Shown: positions 11,350 through 19,900 of the stretch, piece after piece
How positions within the stretch are numbered: the first letter of the stretch is position 1
Layout: each line of letters starts with the position of its first letter
Position numbers and translations under genes: made by a program
NCBI GenBank assembly: GCA_020850535.1
Contig: JADZEM010000152.1
Location: 1-51,554, forward strand
DNA: 51,554 nucleotides
From: Chloroflexota bacterium
Lineage (GTDB): Bacteria > Chloroflexota > UBA6077 > JACCZL01
Direction of reading: 5' to 3'
The notes under the pieces: generated by a model
The model's input: the letters and a program-made list of their open reading frames with translations, nothing else
What the model was told of the DNA's origin: nothing
The model's database searches: none

Positions 11350-12387
11350 TTAGCCCTCCAGGTACTCGGCGAGCCGAGAGCGGATGTCCGTTCGGCGCAG
11401 CTTTCGCAGCGCCTCAGCCTCGATCTGGCGCACCCGCTCGCGGCTGATGCCCAGCTCCTGGCCGATGTCGCCGAGGGCCTGCGCCTCGCCGCCACCCAGG
11501 CCGAACCGCAGCCGCAGGACCGCCTGCTCGCGCTCGGTCAGGGCCGCGCCGAGGGCATCGTCCAGCCGCCGCGCCAGGTCAGAGCGCTCGGCCGCCGCCT
11601 GCAGGTCCGTGGCCTCCAGGTCCGGCACGAGATCGCCGACCGACGTCTCGCCATCCTCGCCAACCGGCGTCTCCAGCGAGATCGGCAGCTTCGCAGCCCG
11701 CAGCGTCTCCTCGACGCGCGAGATCGGCAGCTCCAGATACTCGGCCACCTCGACCAGCGACGGCTCGCGCCCGAGCCGGCTGGCCAGCTCACGCTGCGCC
11801 CGCGCGATGCTCGACAGGAACTCGCCGACATGGACGGGGAGGCGGATGGTGCGCGCCTGCTCGGCCACCGCCCGGCTCACCGACTGTCGGATCCACCAGT
11901 AGGCATAGGTCGAGAAGCGGAAGCCCTTCCGCCAGTCGTACTTGTCGACGGCCCGGTCGAGGCCGAGGTTCCCCTCCTGGACGAGGTCCAGGAACGGCAG
12001 GCCACGCCCGATGTACTTGCGCGCCACCGAGACCACGAGCCGCAGGTTGCACTCGACGAGCCGCCGCCGCGTCCAGGCGCCGTCCGCCGCGACGCGCTCC
12101 AGCTCAATGCGCTGCTCGAAGGCGAGGTCATCGCTCGCGTTCAGAAGCTGCTCGCGGGCCTCGCGGCCCTTCTCATTGCGCTGGGCGAAGTCGATCTCCT
12201 CCTGCGGGGTCAGCAGGGGGTTCCTGGCAACCTCACGGAGGTAGAGGGCAGCCGCGCTCAGATCCTCGGGCGTACCCGCAAGATGGTCCTCAGTCTGCAG
12301 CTCAGGCTCGGAGGTCGCCGCGATCTCTGCCTCGGTGGCAGCGGCCTCCAACTGGAGGTCGATATCGTAGTCCAGATTGATAGCCAT
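11350..12387 (-). CDS. RNA polymerase sigma-70 factor (RpoD/SigA-like)
   Basis: 345 residues. Region 1.2 is near DLSAAALYLREVARNPLLT (about 42-60). Region 2 carries NLRLVVSVARKYIGRGLPFLDLVQEGNLGL and FSTYAYWWIRQSV for core binding and -10 recognition. Region 3 follows, and region 4 ends with LGISRERVRQIEAEALRKLR, which recognises the -35 element. There is an acidic N-terminal stretch but no long region 1.1, so it may be the primary sigma or a group 2 relative. ATG 12387 has AGGAGG 7 nt upstream. A strong promoter and a structured leader precede it, suggesting control at the RNA level. Confidence 0.93.
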   Translation of the reverse strand: MAINLDYDIDLQLEAAATEAEIAATSEPELQTEDHLAGTPEDLSAAALYLREVARNPLLTPQEEIDFAQRNEKGREAREQLLNASDDLAFEQRIELERVAADGAWTRRRLVECNLRLVVSVARKYIGRGLPFLDLVQEGNLGLDRAVDKYDWRKGFRFSTYAYWWIRQSVSRAVAEQARTIRLPVHVGEFLSSIARAQRELASRLGREPSLVEVAEYLELPISRVEETLRAAKLPISLETPVGEDGETSVGDLVPDLEATDLQAAAERSDLARRLDDALGAALTEREQAVLRLRFGLGGGEAQALGDIGQELGISRERVRQIEAEALRKLRRTDIRSRLAEYLEG

Positions 12388-14381: not shown

Positions 14382-14517
14382 GGCGAGGACGATACCGGAC
14401 CGGCCGGACCCCTTGCCAGCGCTGCGGCGGTCCGTCCCGGACGTTGCTGGCAGTCGTCCACCCCCCGACGACGGTGCTAGCATGTCGTGCAGTGCAAGGC
14501 TCCAACGGAGGACGCTT

Positions 14518-15492
14518 GTGAAGGTACTGACACCCGCCCAGCGCCAGCAGTTCGAGGACGAGGGCTACGTCGTCGTCGATCAGGTGCTCGATCCGGCCCG
14601 CGAGATCGCCCCGGTCATGGACGAGTTCTCGGGTGTCCTGGACGACGTCGCGGCGTCGTTGCGGGCCGAGGGGGCCATCGCCTCGACGTATCCGGAGCTG
14701 TCGTTCAGCGACCGCCTCACGCGGATCTGCGCCGAGAGCGGGCGAAACTTCCCGGACCGCTTCGACATCAGCCTGCCCTTCAAGGGCGTCCAGCGCGACA
14801 CGCCGATCCACCTTGGGCCGTCCGTCTTCCGCCTGATGACCAGCCCGCGTCTGCTGGATGCCGTCGAGGACATCATCGGCCCGGAGATCTTCTCGAACCC
14901 GGTTCAGCATGTTCGGATGAAGCTGCCCAGGCGGGCCGTCTCCGACGCGTTTCGCAACAGCAGCCTGATGTCCAAGACCGGCTGGCACCAGGACATTGGC
15001 GTCATCCTGGAAGAGGCGGACGTGGCGACGATCCTGACCGTCTGGATCCCGCTGAGCGACGCCACCGAGGAGAACGGTTGCCTGGAGGTGATCCCGGGGA
15101 GCCACCGCAACACCCTGATCGAGCACTGCTCGACCACCGGCGGCATGCGTATCCCGGACATCCTCCTGCCGGCCCAGCGGTCACGCCCACTCCCGATGCC
15201 GGCTGGCAGCGTCATCCTGATGAACCAGCAGACGGTCCACGCCTCGCTGGACAACGTGACCGAGGATCAGGTCCGCCTGAGCTTCGATTTGCGCTATCAG
15301 CCCATCGGACAGCCGACGGGACGGCCGGCGTTCCCGGGCTTCGTTGCCCGCAGCGCCGCCCACCCCGAGACGGTCCTCAGCGATCCAGCGGGCTGGGCGC
15401 GGCTCTGGCTCGACACGCGCGAGCGGCTGGCCCGCATCGAGGAGGAGCTGCGCTTCACCCGCTGGAACAGCGAGTCCGCGGTCTGCGCCTGA
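14518..15492 (+). CDS. Phytanoyl-CoA dioxygenase (PhyH) family protein
   Basis: A 324-residue Fe(II)/2-oxoglutarate oxygenase. The iron-binding facial triad is seen as TGWHQDIG (His-x-Asp) and the distal His in QTVHASLDN. The 2-oxoglutarate-binding arginine is probably in QVRLSFDLRYQP. ENGCLEVIPGSH, the usual PhyH strand, lies between. GTG 14518 is preceded by GGAGG at 8 nt, which decides the start over a much longer upstream frame that overlaps pheA. It is probably a hydroxylase of a small molecule; the substrate is unknown. It is divergent from pheA. Confidence 0.9.
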   Translation: MKVLTPAQRQQFEDEGYVVVDQVLDPAREIAPVMDEFSGVLDDVAASLRAEGAIASTYPELSFSDRLTRICAESGRNFPDRFDISLPFKGVQRDTPIHLGPSVFRLMTSPRLLDAVEDIIGPEIFSNPVQHVRMKLPRRAVSDAFRNSSLMSKTGWHQDIGVILEEADVATILTVWIPLSDATEENGCLEVIPGSHRNTLIEHCSTTGGMRIPDILLPAQRSRPLPMPAGSVILMNQQTVHASLDNVTEDQVRLSFDLRYQPIGQPTGRPAFPGFVARSAAHPETVLSDPAGWARLWLDTRERLARIEEELRFTRWNSESAVCA

Positions 15493-15540
15493 CGAATGAC
15501 CCTCACCCCCCGACCTGACGCGCGGACTCCGTGGTTCTTT

Positions 15541-15600
15541 CGTCAAACGCCATCAAGCCCCGACGACGCCGCACAACGCGCTCAACATGTGATTGCCCTG
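15541..15600. repeat. Partial MITE-like right end
   Basis: This stretch, from CGTCAAACGCCATCAAGC to GTGATTGCCCTG, matches the right-hand end of the CAGGGCGATTGCATG element family and resembles 46308-46368. The left half is absent. Confidence 0.6.
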
Positions 15601-15618
15601 GCTCGTCCATTTCGGGGG

Positions 15619-15647
15619 TTGACAGGCCGGGCGGGGATCGGTATGCT
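15619..15647 (+). promoter_or_regulatory. Consensus promoter of the small RNA/sORF unit
   Basis: TTGACA (15619-15624, perfect -35), a 17-bp spacer and TATGCT (15642-15647). Transcription should begin near 15654-15656, only a few bases before the ribosome-binding site. Confidence 0.8.
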
Positions 15648-15675
15648 CTCCAACAGTGAAAGGAGGTGATGCCAC

Positions 15676-15723
15676 ATGAGTAGTCACAGTCGTGGGGGCA
15701 TCCTGGGAGGTTTGACCTCCTAG
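15676..15723 (+). CDS. 15-codon small ORF in a structured transcript
   Basis: ATG to TAG gives MSSHSRGGILGGLTS. The ribosome-binding site AAAGGAGGTGAT (15659-15670) matches the complement of the 16S rRNA 3' end over 12 bases, the best one possible, with 9 nt from GGAGG to ATG. The second half of the ORF is also a 9-bp hairpin ending exactly on the stop codon. Promoter and terminator frame it closely. It may encode a tiny peptide, or ribosome loading may serve to refold the RNA. I know no named family. Confidence 0.55.
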   Translation: MSSHSRGGILGGLTS

Positions 15724-15781
15724 CCCAAGCTGTTGGGGGATGCCACTCAGAATGCCCCCGCGAGCGTGTCGAACACGCACC

Positions 15782-15808
15782 GAGCCCGCCGAATGGCGGG
15801 CTCTTTTC
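15782..15808 (+). terminator. Intrinsic terminator of the small RNA unit
   Basis: A perfect 9-bp stem GAGCCCGCC/GGCGGGCTC with GAAT loop, followed by TTTTC. Confidence 0.9.
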
Positions 15809-15880
15809 GTATGCCCGAATGGTCTGGCGCCTGCCAGTGCGCCTGTCAGCCTGAACGGAACGAGCATGCGAGTGACGTGA

Positions 15881-15931
15881 AGGTCCTCACCCGCTGATGC
15901 AAACATTGACGGTCAGCGGGTGAGGTCCTTC
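15881..15931. repeat. Short inverted repeat of the CACCCGCTGAC family
   Basis: AAGGTCCTCACCCGCTGA is mirrored by TCAGCGGGTGAGGTCCTT with one mismatch and a 15-nt loop. It is followed by GCTCAGGACGACAG, as in the elements at 878-1052 and 39107-39184. Confidence 0.75.
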
Positions 15932-16001
15932 GCAGGCTCAGGACGACAGGGGTCCTGCCGCACGACAGGCTGACGCCGAGCCGCTGATGACGGAGCGCGT
16001 G

Positions 16002-16871
16002 CTACGCCTTCGTGGCGGCGCTGGCTGCCGCGATGGCCTCCTGGCGCTCGTCCCATTCGTCCTCGAAGGCTTCGAGGGTGGCGTTCGCGCCGGAACGGTT
16101 CGCGCTCGTCCAGTGGTAGACCAGGATCCAGACTGCCAGCGCCCCCACCGCGAACGACAGGAACTGGGCCTGACTCAGACCGAAGACGAACGGCTGATCC
16201 AGCCGGAAAAACTGCACCCAGAACCGCCCCAGCGAGTACAGCGCGATCATCGCCCAGAAGACCATCCCATGGCGCGGGAGCGCCCGCCGGTGGAGCAGCC
16301 ACGCGCAGACGGCGAAGACCAGCATGTCCCAGATCAGCTCGTAGCCCACGGCCAGGTGGACGGGGATGCCGATCTCGCCGAGAGTCAGCGGGTGCGTGAA
16401 CGTCACCGAGAACGGGAACGCCTGCGCGAGCGCCCCGTGGTGCTCGCCATTGACGATGTCGCCGAGGCGGCCGATGGCCATGCCCAGGATCAGCCCGAGG
16501 CCGCAGATGTCCATCAGCTCGGTCACGGCGAAGCCGCGCCGGCGCGCGTAGATCGCGCCGCCGATCGGGCCGCCGACGATGCTGCCCCAGATCGCCAGGC
16601 CGCCCTCGTTAACGCGCAGGATGGCCAGCGGGTCCGCCGCGTAGTACTCCCAGGCGTCGATCACGTGGAAGAGGCGCGCACCGACGATGCCGCCCACGAC
16701 GCACCAGAGGGCAATCGACATAATGTCGTCTTCGGTGTACCCTCGCTCCACGGCGAAGCGCGTTGCCAGCCAGATCCCGGCCAGCACGCCCACGGCGGTG
16801 AAAAACCCGTGCCACGTAATCATCAGAGGCCCGAGCCTGAGCAGCGTCGGGTCGATGTTGATCTCGATCAT
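16002..16871 (-). CDS. lgt: Prolipoprotein diacylglyceryl transferase
   Basis: It transfers diacylglycerol from phosphatidylglycerol to the lipobox cysteine of prolipoproteins in the cytoplasmic membrane. At 289 residues with about seven hydrophobic helices it has normal family length. The Lgt signature is seen as GMAIGRLGDIVNGEHHG. An early MITWHGFFTAVGVLAGIW and a late YSLGRFWVQFFRLDQP also fit. The start is ATG 16871; the frame open to 17330 is only an antisense shadow of the helicase gene. The C-terminal 35 residues are a hydrophilic, Ala/Glu-rich extension. It is divergent from the helicase gene (77-bp gap). The lipoprotein at 28924 would be a substrate. Confidence 0.94.
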   Translation of the reverse strand: MIEINIDPTLLRLGPLMITWHGFFTAVGVLAGIWLATRFAVERGYTEDDIMSIALWCVVGGIVGARLFHVIDAWEYYAADPLAILRVNEGGLAIWGSIVGGPIGGAIYARRRGFAVTELMDICGLGLILGMAIGRLGDIVNGEHHGALAQAFPFSVTFTHPLTLGEIGIPVHLAVGYELIWDMLVFAVCAWLLHRRALPRHGMVFWAMIALYSLGRFWVQFFRLDQPFVFGLSQAQFLSFAVGALAVWILVYHWTSANRSGANATLEAFEDEWDERQEAIAAASAATKA

Positions 16872-16948
16872 CGGTTCGCGTACCCTCTTGCGACCACGCT
16901 GGCCAATTCGCGTTCGGAGTATAACTCTCACCAGGAGTCGCAACGGCG

Positions 16949-19900
16949 GTGCTGGTCCTTCATGGAGCCTGGGGCGTCGAGCGGAACACAGGCGACGCTG
17001 CGTTCTTGCTCTGGGCCGAAGATGCGGCGCTGACGCCGGACCAGTCGGGCGCATCCGCCTCGGCTGCATCCGATGCTGCCCCGATGCATCCGCTCCAGGC
17101 CGCCACGGCAAGCTTGCGCGCTGCCCTCCAGACGCTCGCGACGCTGACTGGCCGTGCCGGCGAGCCGGTGCGCTCAGGGGCTGCCTCGTGGCTGGTGACC
17201 CTGCCAACGCTGAACGGTCAGCCGCTGCCCTCGCCCGAGGCGGCCGCGGCCGGAGCCGACCTCGCGCTGGCCGTCCGCGCCAGCCAGCCAGCCGTGGCAG
17301 GCGGCGCCGCCGAACTGCCCGTCTCTCCATCGGAGAGAGGGTCAGAGGACGCGCTCACCGCTCCGACCCTCGTCCCCTGGCGCGTGCGGGGGCGGGCCGT
17401 CCCGGCCAGCCAGGCGGTCTGGCTGCTCTCACTGCTGCCCGCCGACGATGGCCCGCTGAACCAGGAGCTTGCGCTCGGATCGGATGCCCGCTACTGGCGC
17501 TCCGTCGCGAAGCTGGCGCTCGAACTCGTGGCCCGCGAGCGCTTCGTGCCCACCCTTGACGCGCGGGCCGGCCTGCGCGCCCGCTGGCGTCCAGTCCTCA
17601 TCGACCCACGGGACGCCAGCCGCTTCGCACTGCTGGCCCGCGCGATGCCGCCGGCCTGCCGCGCCATCGGCGACGCCACCCAGAGCGCCGAGACGGTGCT
17701 GAGTCGAGCGCTCGGCGCGGCCGTCGACGCGCTGGTGGTGGACGGGCTGGCCGCCGCCGAGTTGCACAATGCGCGCGACGTGCCCCGCCCGCCGACCGCC
17801 GCCGACGCCTGGGTCTGGGCGCTCTCGACGGGCAACAGCGCCGTGCCCGAAGGGGGCTATGACCTGGGCTCGTACGGCGAGCGCGTGACCGAGTGGTCCG
17901 CCCCCGTTGGCGGGGTCGGCGTGGCGAGTGCGCTGCGGACCTGCCTCCAGCTTGAGCCGCCGCCGGATGGCTCGGCGGCCACCAGCGACGAGCGCTCCTG
18001 GACGCTGCGCTTCCTGCTCCAGGCCGCCGACGATCCCAGCCTGATCGTCCCGGCCGAGCGCGTCTGGGAAGAGACCGGCGATGTGCTCGGCGTCTTCGGG
18101 CGGCGGCTGGAGCGGCCCCAGGAACGGCTGCTGGCCGATCTGGGGCGGGCGGCGCGCCTCTTTCCACCTATCGAGCTGGGGCTGATCGGCGCGGCTCCAA
18201 GCTCGTGCCATCTGACGACTGTCGAGGCGTACACCTTCCTGCGCGAAGCCGTCCCGATGCTCGAGGAGAGCGGTTTCGGCGTGCTGGTGCCCGGCTGGTG
18301 GACGCCGCGCGGCGCGCGGCGGCTGGGCGTGCGGCTGCGCCTCGGGGCGCGGCAGGCGATGGCCGGGGCGGCCGGCACGGACAGCCACGGCAAGTTCACG
18401 CAGGAGTCGCTGGTCAGTTTCGACTGGAAGCTGGCGATTGGCGACGAAGAGCTGGACGCCCGCGAGCTGAAGCGGCTGGCGAAGCTCAAGATGCCGCTGG
18501 TCCAGGTGCGTGGCCAGTGGGTCGAGATCGACGCGACGAAGGTCGAAGAGGCGATCAAGTACTGGGAGAAGCGGCGGCGCGGCAAGGGCGTCAGCGCCGC
18601 CGAGGCGCTGCGGGTCGCGCTGGCCCCGCCGACCGAGTCGCCGGGCCTGCCGGTGGTGGACGTCACCGCCGAGGGCTGGCTGGCCGACCTGCTGGAGCGG
18701 ATCGGGGAGGGGACGCCCGCCGCCGCGCCGTTCGAGACGCCGGACGGCTTCGAGGGGGAGCTGCGCGAGTACCAGACGCGCGGGGCAGCGTGGCTCAGCT
18801 TTCTGGCTCTGCACGGGCTGGGCGGCTGCCTCGCGGACGACATGGGCCTCGGCAAGACGATCCAGTACATCGCCTTCTTGCTGGCGAACCGCCTCCCGGA
18901 GGATGACCGCCGGCCAGCCCTGCTGGTCTGCCCGACCTCGGTGATCGGCAACTGGCGGCGGGAGCTGCGGCGGTTCGCCCCCGACGTGAAGGTGATGACC
19001 CATCACGGGCCGGACCGACGGCTCGGCAAGCAGCTGCTGGAGGCGATCCACGGCTACGACGTGGTGCTTTCGACCTACTCGCTGCTGGACCGCGACGAGA
19101 CGTCGCTGAAGCCGATCCCCTGGGCCGGCATCGTGCTGGACGAGGCGCAGAACGTCAAGAACCCGGCCACCCGCCGCGCGAAGGCCGTCCGGACGTTCTC
19201 CGGCAGCTACCGTTTCGCCATGACCGGCACGCCCGTCGAGAATCGGCTGTCCGAGCTGTGGGCGATCCTCGACTTCCTGAACCCCGGCTACCTCGGCTCG
19301 CGCGAGGCGTTCCGTCGGTCGTTCGCCGTGCCCATCGAGCGCTGGCGCGACGCCGACCGGGCCGGCGAGCTGCGGAAGCTGGTTCGGCCGTTCGTGCTGC
19401 GGCGCGTCAAGACCGATCCGAACGTGATCCAGGATCTGCCCGACAAGCTGGAGTCACGCGTCTACTGCACGCTGACCCGCGAGCAGGCCAGCCTCTACCA
19501 GGCCGTCGTGGACGAGATGCTGCGCGAGATCGACGCCGCCGAGGGGATCGAGCGGCGCGGGCGGGTGCTGGCGGCGCTGCTGCGGCTCAAGCAGGTCTGC
19601 AACCATCCCGCTAGCTTCCTGGGCGAGGGGGATCGCCGGCCGCTCGGCGGACGCTCGGGCAAACTGGCGCGCCTCGAAGAGATGCTCGAAGAGGTCATCG
19701 AGGAGGGCGAGGCCGCCCTGGTCTTCACCCAGTTCGCCGAGTTCGGCGTGCGCCTCCGCGAGTACCTTCAGGGTCGGCTCGGCCGCGAGGTCATGTTCCT
19801 GCACGGTGGCACACCGGTCCGCTCTCGCGATGCGATGGTGCAGCGCTTCCAGCAGGAAGGTGGCCCGCCGATCTTCCTGCTCTCGCTGAAGGCCGGCGGC

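Follow-up and report, generated by a model that had tools for sequence, protein, structure and literature searches.

A candidate family of small translated switch RNAs in Chloroflexota and Myxococcales

Results

A small transcription unit beside lgt

The window (the whole stretch of 51,554 nucleotides of Chloroflexota DNA that was analysed) carries a phytanoyl-CoA dioxygenase gene on the forward strand that ends at 15492 and, on the opposite strand, an lgt gene with its stop at 16002. Between the two lies what reads as a complete small transcription unit, from promoter to terminator (15619-15807), with the following parts.

15619..15647, + strand: sigma-70-type promoter, TTGACA (-35, 15619-15624), 17-bp spacer and TATGCT (-10, 15642-15647), from direct reading and a promoter scan
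15658..15673, + strand: extended Shine-Dalgarno (SD) sequence plus element S, GAAAGGAGGTGATGCC, near-invariant in all members of the family described below
15676..15723, + strand: 15-codon open reading frame (ORF), ATG at 15676 to TAG ending at 15723, peptide MSSHSRGGILGGLTS, from direct reading
15694..15703, + strand: element A, GGGGGCATCC, within the ORF, partner of S (GATGCC, 15668-15673) or of B, from alignment A2, pair counts and folds
15703..15723, + strand: ORF hairpin (15703-15711/15715-15723) containing the anti-SD-like ACCTCC, retained in loci L009 and L010 only
15738..15744, + strand: element B, GGATGCC, 3' of the stop codon, the aligned partner of A, from alignment and pair counts
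15750..15762, + strand: second B-like arm, GAATGCCCCCGCG, which the window copy is predicted to pair with 15691-15701 in its minimum-energy fold, from folding
15764..15778, + strand: small hairpin GCGTGT-CGA-ACACGC, from folding
15782..15807, + strand: intrinsic terminator, 9-bp stem (15782-15803) followed by TTTT, from a terminator scan

The original prediction, made from the sequence alone, had described a consensus promoter, a long anti-SD match, the 15-codon ORF, a terminator with its T-run and the absence of a downstream gene on the same strand, all of which are borne out. The promoter is the sole promoter-like site in 14500-17000, where shuffled sequences are expected to give 0.1. The anti-SD match, put at 12 bases, extends to 13, all of GAAAGGAGGTGAT (15658-15670) being able to pair with the canonical 16S rRNA 3' tail. 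Elsewhere in the window, at 11350-12387 on the reverse strand, lies a sigma-70 factor gene encoding regions 1.2 to 4.

Recurrence of the layout across Chloroflexota

A nucleotide search of 100 related genomes gave loci with the same order of parts in the same family (L009), in the same order (L010, L016 and L020) and in other classes (L013, L023 and L032). Covariance models built from homologues, the check proposed with the original prediction, recovered the same layout throughout Chloroflexota. Model R1, built from eight loci and used at E<=0.01, matched 79 of 400 Chloroflexota genomes, with a single copy in all but one. Model R2, built from 93 members, matched 153 of 400 genomes and 134 of the 284 good ones, a second match being found in few. 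Model R3, built solely from nine Anaerolineae-type members and relatives, L029 included, matches many of the places found by R2, including Chloroflexus- and Herpetosiphon-type loci. Carriers named by a pattern scan of public genomes include Chloroflexus islandicus, Oscillochloris, Roseiflexaceae, Sphaerobacter, Thermomicrobiaceae, Thermalbibacter, Ardenticatena, Caldilineae and Anaerolineales.

Among 17 non-Chloroflexota genomes picked for a pattern match, chance R2 scores reached 37 bits (L268, which has a long ORF), and weak R2 scores were therefore not accepted without reading of the sequence, nor were R2 E-values relied on alone. When 37 weak Chloroflexota matches were inspected by eye, the layout was present in nearly all. 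At E<=0.001 R2 matched 1 of 249 Pseudomonadota genomes and 3 of 246 Actinomycetota genomes, and on reading the layout was absent from these matches. A search of the window's own genome for further copies gave chance matches only (a second R2 match, L244, lacks an ORF), and plasmids gave no match. A layout that recurs throughout the phylum, usually as a single copy, is more than chance and points to a gene family.

Several observations were made in passing. Genome G308 carries two copies (L081 and L083). Loci L011, L018 and L024 have the same SD block and short Cys-containing frames before birA or greA/lysS and are probably divergent members. In the Herpetosiphon-type locus L096 (2097-2172 and 2527-4201) the element lies just past an opposite-strand 23S rRNA gene, and in several relatives the contigs end at this junction. 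A CRISPR array in a related genome (L019, ~1430-1600) has one spacer with an SD and a start codon (GAAGGAGGTGATGCCACATG).

The element could not be placed in a known class, as had been stated at the outset. Rfam 15 at its curated cut-off gave no match in the window nor at the element in 12 Chloroflexota and 7 Myxococcales loci, the sole match in the 12 Chloroflexota loci being a neighbouring 23S rRNA. At a relaxed threshold nothing rose above cut-off, the best match being Trp_leader (E=0.048) at half its cut-off, and Chloroflexi-1 RNA (RF01698) was not matched at the gathering or the relaxed threshold. We considered 6S RNA (RF00013) and rejected it, as 6S RNA lies at other places in the element-bearing genomes G033, G039, G045, G050, G054 and G059. 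The papers searched, on RNAs of Chloroflexi and on short ORFs, contained no description resembling the element.

Of 135 members, 119 have a terminator-like site within 150 nt past the stop codon, where 8.6 would be expected. Most also have a promoter-like site upstream, the mean score there being 7.6 versus 5.0 for shuffled sequences. At 33 Chloroflexota loci the downstream neighbour shares the strand of the element and at 34 it lies on the opposite strand, and its identity varies by lineage. Such variable and randomly oriented downstream genes indicate a free-standing gene rather than a leader.

Three mutually exclusive pairing elements

Three elements recur among the members: S, which is the SD block with the sequence GGAGGTGATGCCC or a variant of it; A, the complement of S inside the ORF; and B, the partner of A located 3' of the stop codon. 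Members of the Roseiflexus type have a B identical to S (GGTGATGCCC ... GGGCATCACC ... GGTGATGCCC). Other lineages use different letters yet keep the pairing: GGAGGTGATGTGCAG with CTGCACCACCTC, AGGAGGAGGTGATGTC with GGCATCCCTCCTC and GAGGTGATGCCT with AGGCATCACCTC. Alignment A2, which was built from trimmed sequences and used for the A/B pair counts, contains compensatory changes in the A:B stem. In a second count all 10 pairs are 100% paired and 4 show changes in both partners, against 0 of 500 shuffles, although A:B pairing in weak matches was partly selected because the models were built with A:B. In the eight-sequence seed the S:A helix has zero double compensatory changes, and S:A is supported not by covariation but by codon-shuffle duplex energies, SD-opening folds and a partner-swap test. 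Relative to codon-shuffled ORFs the S:A duplex has a mean z of -3.8 and the A:B duplex a mean z of -3.0. Native S:A pairing is better than that of S with the ORFs of other members (p=2e-4) and native A:B pairing is better than that with swapped partners (p=1e-13), p-values that overstate independence because the members are related. In every lineage element A is similar to the 3' tail of 16S rRNA (14 of 16 bases in L146), and its 3' end is most often ~15 nt upstream of the stop codon.

The core of the family is these three exclusive elements, with S:A competing against A:B. The original prediction had stressed the stem 15691-15701/15752-15762, and this stem is indeed present (11 pairs, one of them G-U) at the coordinates given. 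It is, however, one way in which A:B is realised, that of the window copy; in other members B lies directly 3' of the stop codon. Conservation of the stems and ORF in relatives had been put forward as a check, and both are kept with compensatory changes, but the hairpin within the ORF (15703-15711/15715-15723, nine pairs, one G-U, likewise correctly located) is confined to L009 and L010. It is a trait of the window's close relatives that lies outside the family-wide core.

Predicted hiding and release of the Shine-Dalgarno sequence

The window RNA (15654-15808) is predicted to fold as a long rod of -79.8 kcal/mol (z = -5.5), and 0 of 200 dinucleotide shuffles were equally good. Within it GATGCC (15668-15673) can pair with GGCATC (15697-15702), from which two exclusive folds had been proposed. 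Both were reproduced by folding RNAs of differing length: an RNA cut at the stop codon forms GATGCC:GGCATC together with the ORF hairpin, and an extended RNA goes over to the long stem. In this copy the switch is weak, the cost of opening the SD falling from 5.4 kcal/mol for the RNA ending at the stop codon to 4.4 kcal/mol for the longer RNA, because its S:A pairing covers the GATGCC beside GGAGG and not GGAGG itself.

The SD opening cost was computed for 137 members using RNAs that end at the stop codon and RNAs 60 nt longer. By equilibrium folding the mean cost was 11.6 kcal/mol for the RNA up to the stop versus 4.6 kcal/mol with the 3' part. When the 3' part was shuffled, the mean cost remained 10.3 kcal/mol. 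The SD opened by more than 1 kcal/mol in 130 of the 137 members and closed in one. As the lower cost is obtained only with the native 3' part, the order of synthesis should first hide the SD and then free it once B has been made. Note that this lock and release is a prediction of thermodynamic, not kinetic, folding.

Members in Myxococcales

Two of the 17 pattern-picked non-Chloroflexota genomes, Corallococcus and another of the Myxococcaceae, contain real members with the SD, a 15-16-codon ORF and A/B elements. An order-wide search from these two gave more members, many with a T-run terminator, and the Myxococcales locus is always flanked by an ABC transporter gene on one side and, on the other, by a small gene that precedes pyrG. 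The Myxococcales ORFs in L276-L287, L292 and L293 (about position 1500) use TTG as start codon and have LxDSxxxAS in common. Both phyla show a D-S-K/N motif (MNDSKRMG in Chloroflexota and LNDSKIKAS in Myxococcales), which is specified by different codons. The Chloroflexota and Myxococcota copies may derive from a common ancestral gene or from convergence, and the Myxococcales copy, placed before the small gene and pyrG, could have become a leader there.

The ORF and its peptide

The ORF has 12-19 codons in 136 of 139 members and 21 or 24 in the other three, counts that are not independent since the members are related. Start and stop codons are retained in almost all members, and across the ORF span the two alternative frames are broken in 119 and 132 of the 139. 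The stop codons are TAG (89), TAA (42) and TGA (8); TGA is therefore rarer in these ORFs than in the neighbouring genes, where it ends 96 of 236 (41%). Codons 2-6 are strongly U-ending: AGT makes up 88% of the Ser codons (10% in neighbouring genes), and the corresponding values are 93% versus 18% for GGT and 82% versus 15% for CGT. This preference (AGT, GAT, GGT and CGT) occurs in Chloroflexota genomes that are mostly GC-rich.

We read this pattern as selection on the RNA and on its being translated, with peptide selection weak or local. The alternative that the 12-19-residue peptide is the product, the SD-hiding fold only setting its dose, was among the options first proposed. It would account for the strong SD and for the near-universal retention of frame, start and stop. 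When close members are compared, synonymous changes are somewhat in excess (0.34 versus 0.22 expected), and this excess, together with the D-S-K/N motif encoded by different codons in the two phyla, could mean that the peptide matters. However, there is no codon-position signature, since differences are not enriched at third positions, and in-frame substitution scores are no better than out-of-frame scores. Moreover, the C-terminal half is dictated by A, which is read in different frames by lineage: as GIT in Chloroflexia and as ASP or CTT in Anaerolineae types. The peptides, by reading, are hydrophilic, variable and rich in Ser, Asp, Lys and Arg. As codon-level conservation is at most weak, the tiny-protein explanation is weakened, and we regard it as unlikely.

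Discussion

Our favoured explanation, which we hold to be somewhat more likely than not, is that the element is a free-standing gene, mostly present once per genome, that encodes a small switch RNA which is translated, and that this gene is conserved across Chloroflexota and present in Myxococcales. The sequence comparisons above show that the family exists, that it is free-standing and that it has the ORF, the two pairings and the terminator. Switching in the cell, translation of the ORF and a greater importance of the act of translation (ribosome occupancy) than of the peptide are what we infer.

In the proposed mechanism a nascent RNA that has only S and A would pair the two and hide the SD. 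As B emerges A would shift to B, the SD would open, and ribosomes would load on the finished and terminated RNA and translate the short ORF. Given the size of the ribosome footprint, a ribosome positioned on the stop codon would have its trailing edge close to the 3' end of A. Such a terminating ribosome, covering the A-B loop, could leave A free to re-close S and so limit loading. Our guess is that the loaded molecule is a ribosome-responsive regulatory RNA. Of the options first proposed, a ribosome-sensing RNA and a dual-function RNA may each apply. More tentatively, the family may be a new RNA class, possibly of early bacterial origin given its presence in Chloroflexota and Myxococcota, in which translation of a little-conserved ORF is itself the function. 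Ribosomes would be admitted only once the RNA is complete and released, and the RNA would act as a sensor of ribosome loading or translation state.

A base-pairing small RNA, in which the anti-SD-like A seeds on the SD regions of mRNAs or S/B acts as a decoy for the 16S tail, would fit the free-standing, terminated gene and the likeness of A to the 16S tail in every lineage. We think it improbable, as A is predicted to be paired in both states and the conserved start, frame and RF1-type stops would need a separate reason. A transcription attenuator or leader peptide for a downstream gene is very improbable. In some lineages a same-strand gene (PIG-L, sufS, birA or dtxR) does follow just past the terminator, the Myxococcales locus is fixed before pyrG and the ORF overlaps mutually exclusive helices; however, the 33:34 orientation and lineage-dependent genes in Chloroflexota and the convergent lgt in the window stand against it. 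For the window copy genomic context largely refutes it, in agreement with the original view that this is not an ordinary leader peptide. We give almost no credence to a type I toxin mRNA whose SD is hidden by a metastable fold. Hiding of the nascent SD by an ORF element, as in aapA3 (PMC6733600), is predicted for 130 of the 137 members, with a weak effect in the window copy, but the peptides are by reading short, hydrophilic and variable, the opposite strand scanned near the window copy has no promoter-like site, the finished RNA is predicted to be open (mean 4.6 kcal/mol) rather than inert, and there is one copy per genome across the whole phylum.

The switch RNA that we favour shares features with several known systems. 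The dual-function small RNAs Spot 42/SpfP, SgrS/SgrT and SR1 resemble the element in being free-standing small RNAs with an SD and a short ORF. SgrS and SR1 are named in PMC5521070. The families cannot be aligned, however, and the conserved part of the element is its SD-hiding A/B switch. Trp- and erm-type leader RNAs likewise have a short ORF over exclusive helices followed by a terminator, whereas the element is free-standing and has neither a regulated downstream gene nor a run of sensed codons. Of the behaviours described, that of the aapA3 toxin mRNA comes closest: while it is being transcribed, an anti-SD within its coding sequence masks the SD for a time (PMC6733600). The aapA/IsoA type I toxin mRNAs of Helicobacter pylori and hok are likewise short and free-standing, with an SD that is covered by a coding-region anti-SD. 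In aapA/IsoA, however, a 5'-3' interaction keeps the completed RNA locked until its 3' end is trimmed, whereas the element is predicted to be open when complete. Moreover, aapA/IsoA pairs a toxin with an antisense RNA, in contrast to the hydrophilic, variable peptides of the element and the lack of an antisense promoter near the window copy. The yfr6 RNA is a conserved RNA with a short ORF and a conserved 5' UTR and coding sequence (PMC2864571). Compared by description, yfr6 and the Downstream-peptide RNAs differ from the element in phylum and in that the structure of the element overlaps its ORF.

The element is present in nearly half of the good Chloroflexota genomes searched, and no counterpart was found in Rfam or in the papers searched. 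Its carriers include culturable bacteria (Chloroflexus, apparently Herpetosiphon, and Corallococcus with its relatives), making it a ready experimental target. If the model is true, this would be an mRNA designed so that translation waits until its own transcription is over, the opposite of coupled transcription-translation, and its short ORF would serve the RNA and not a protein.
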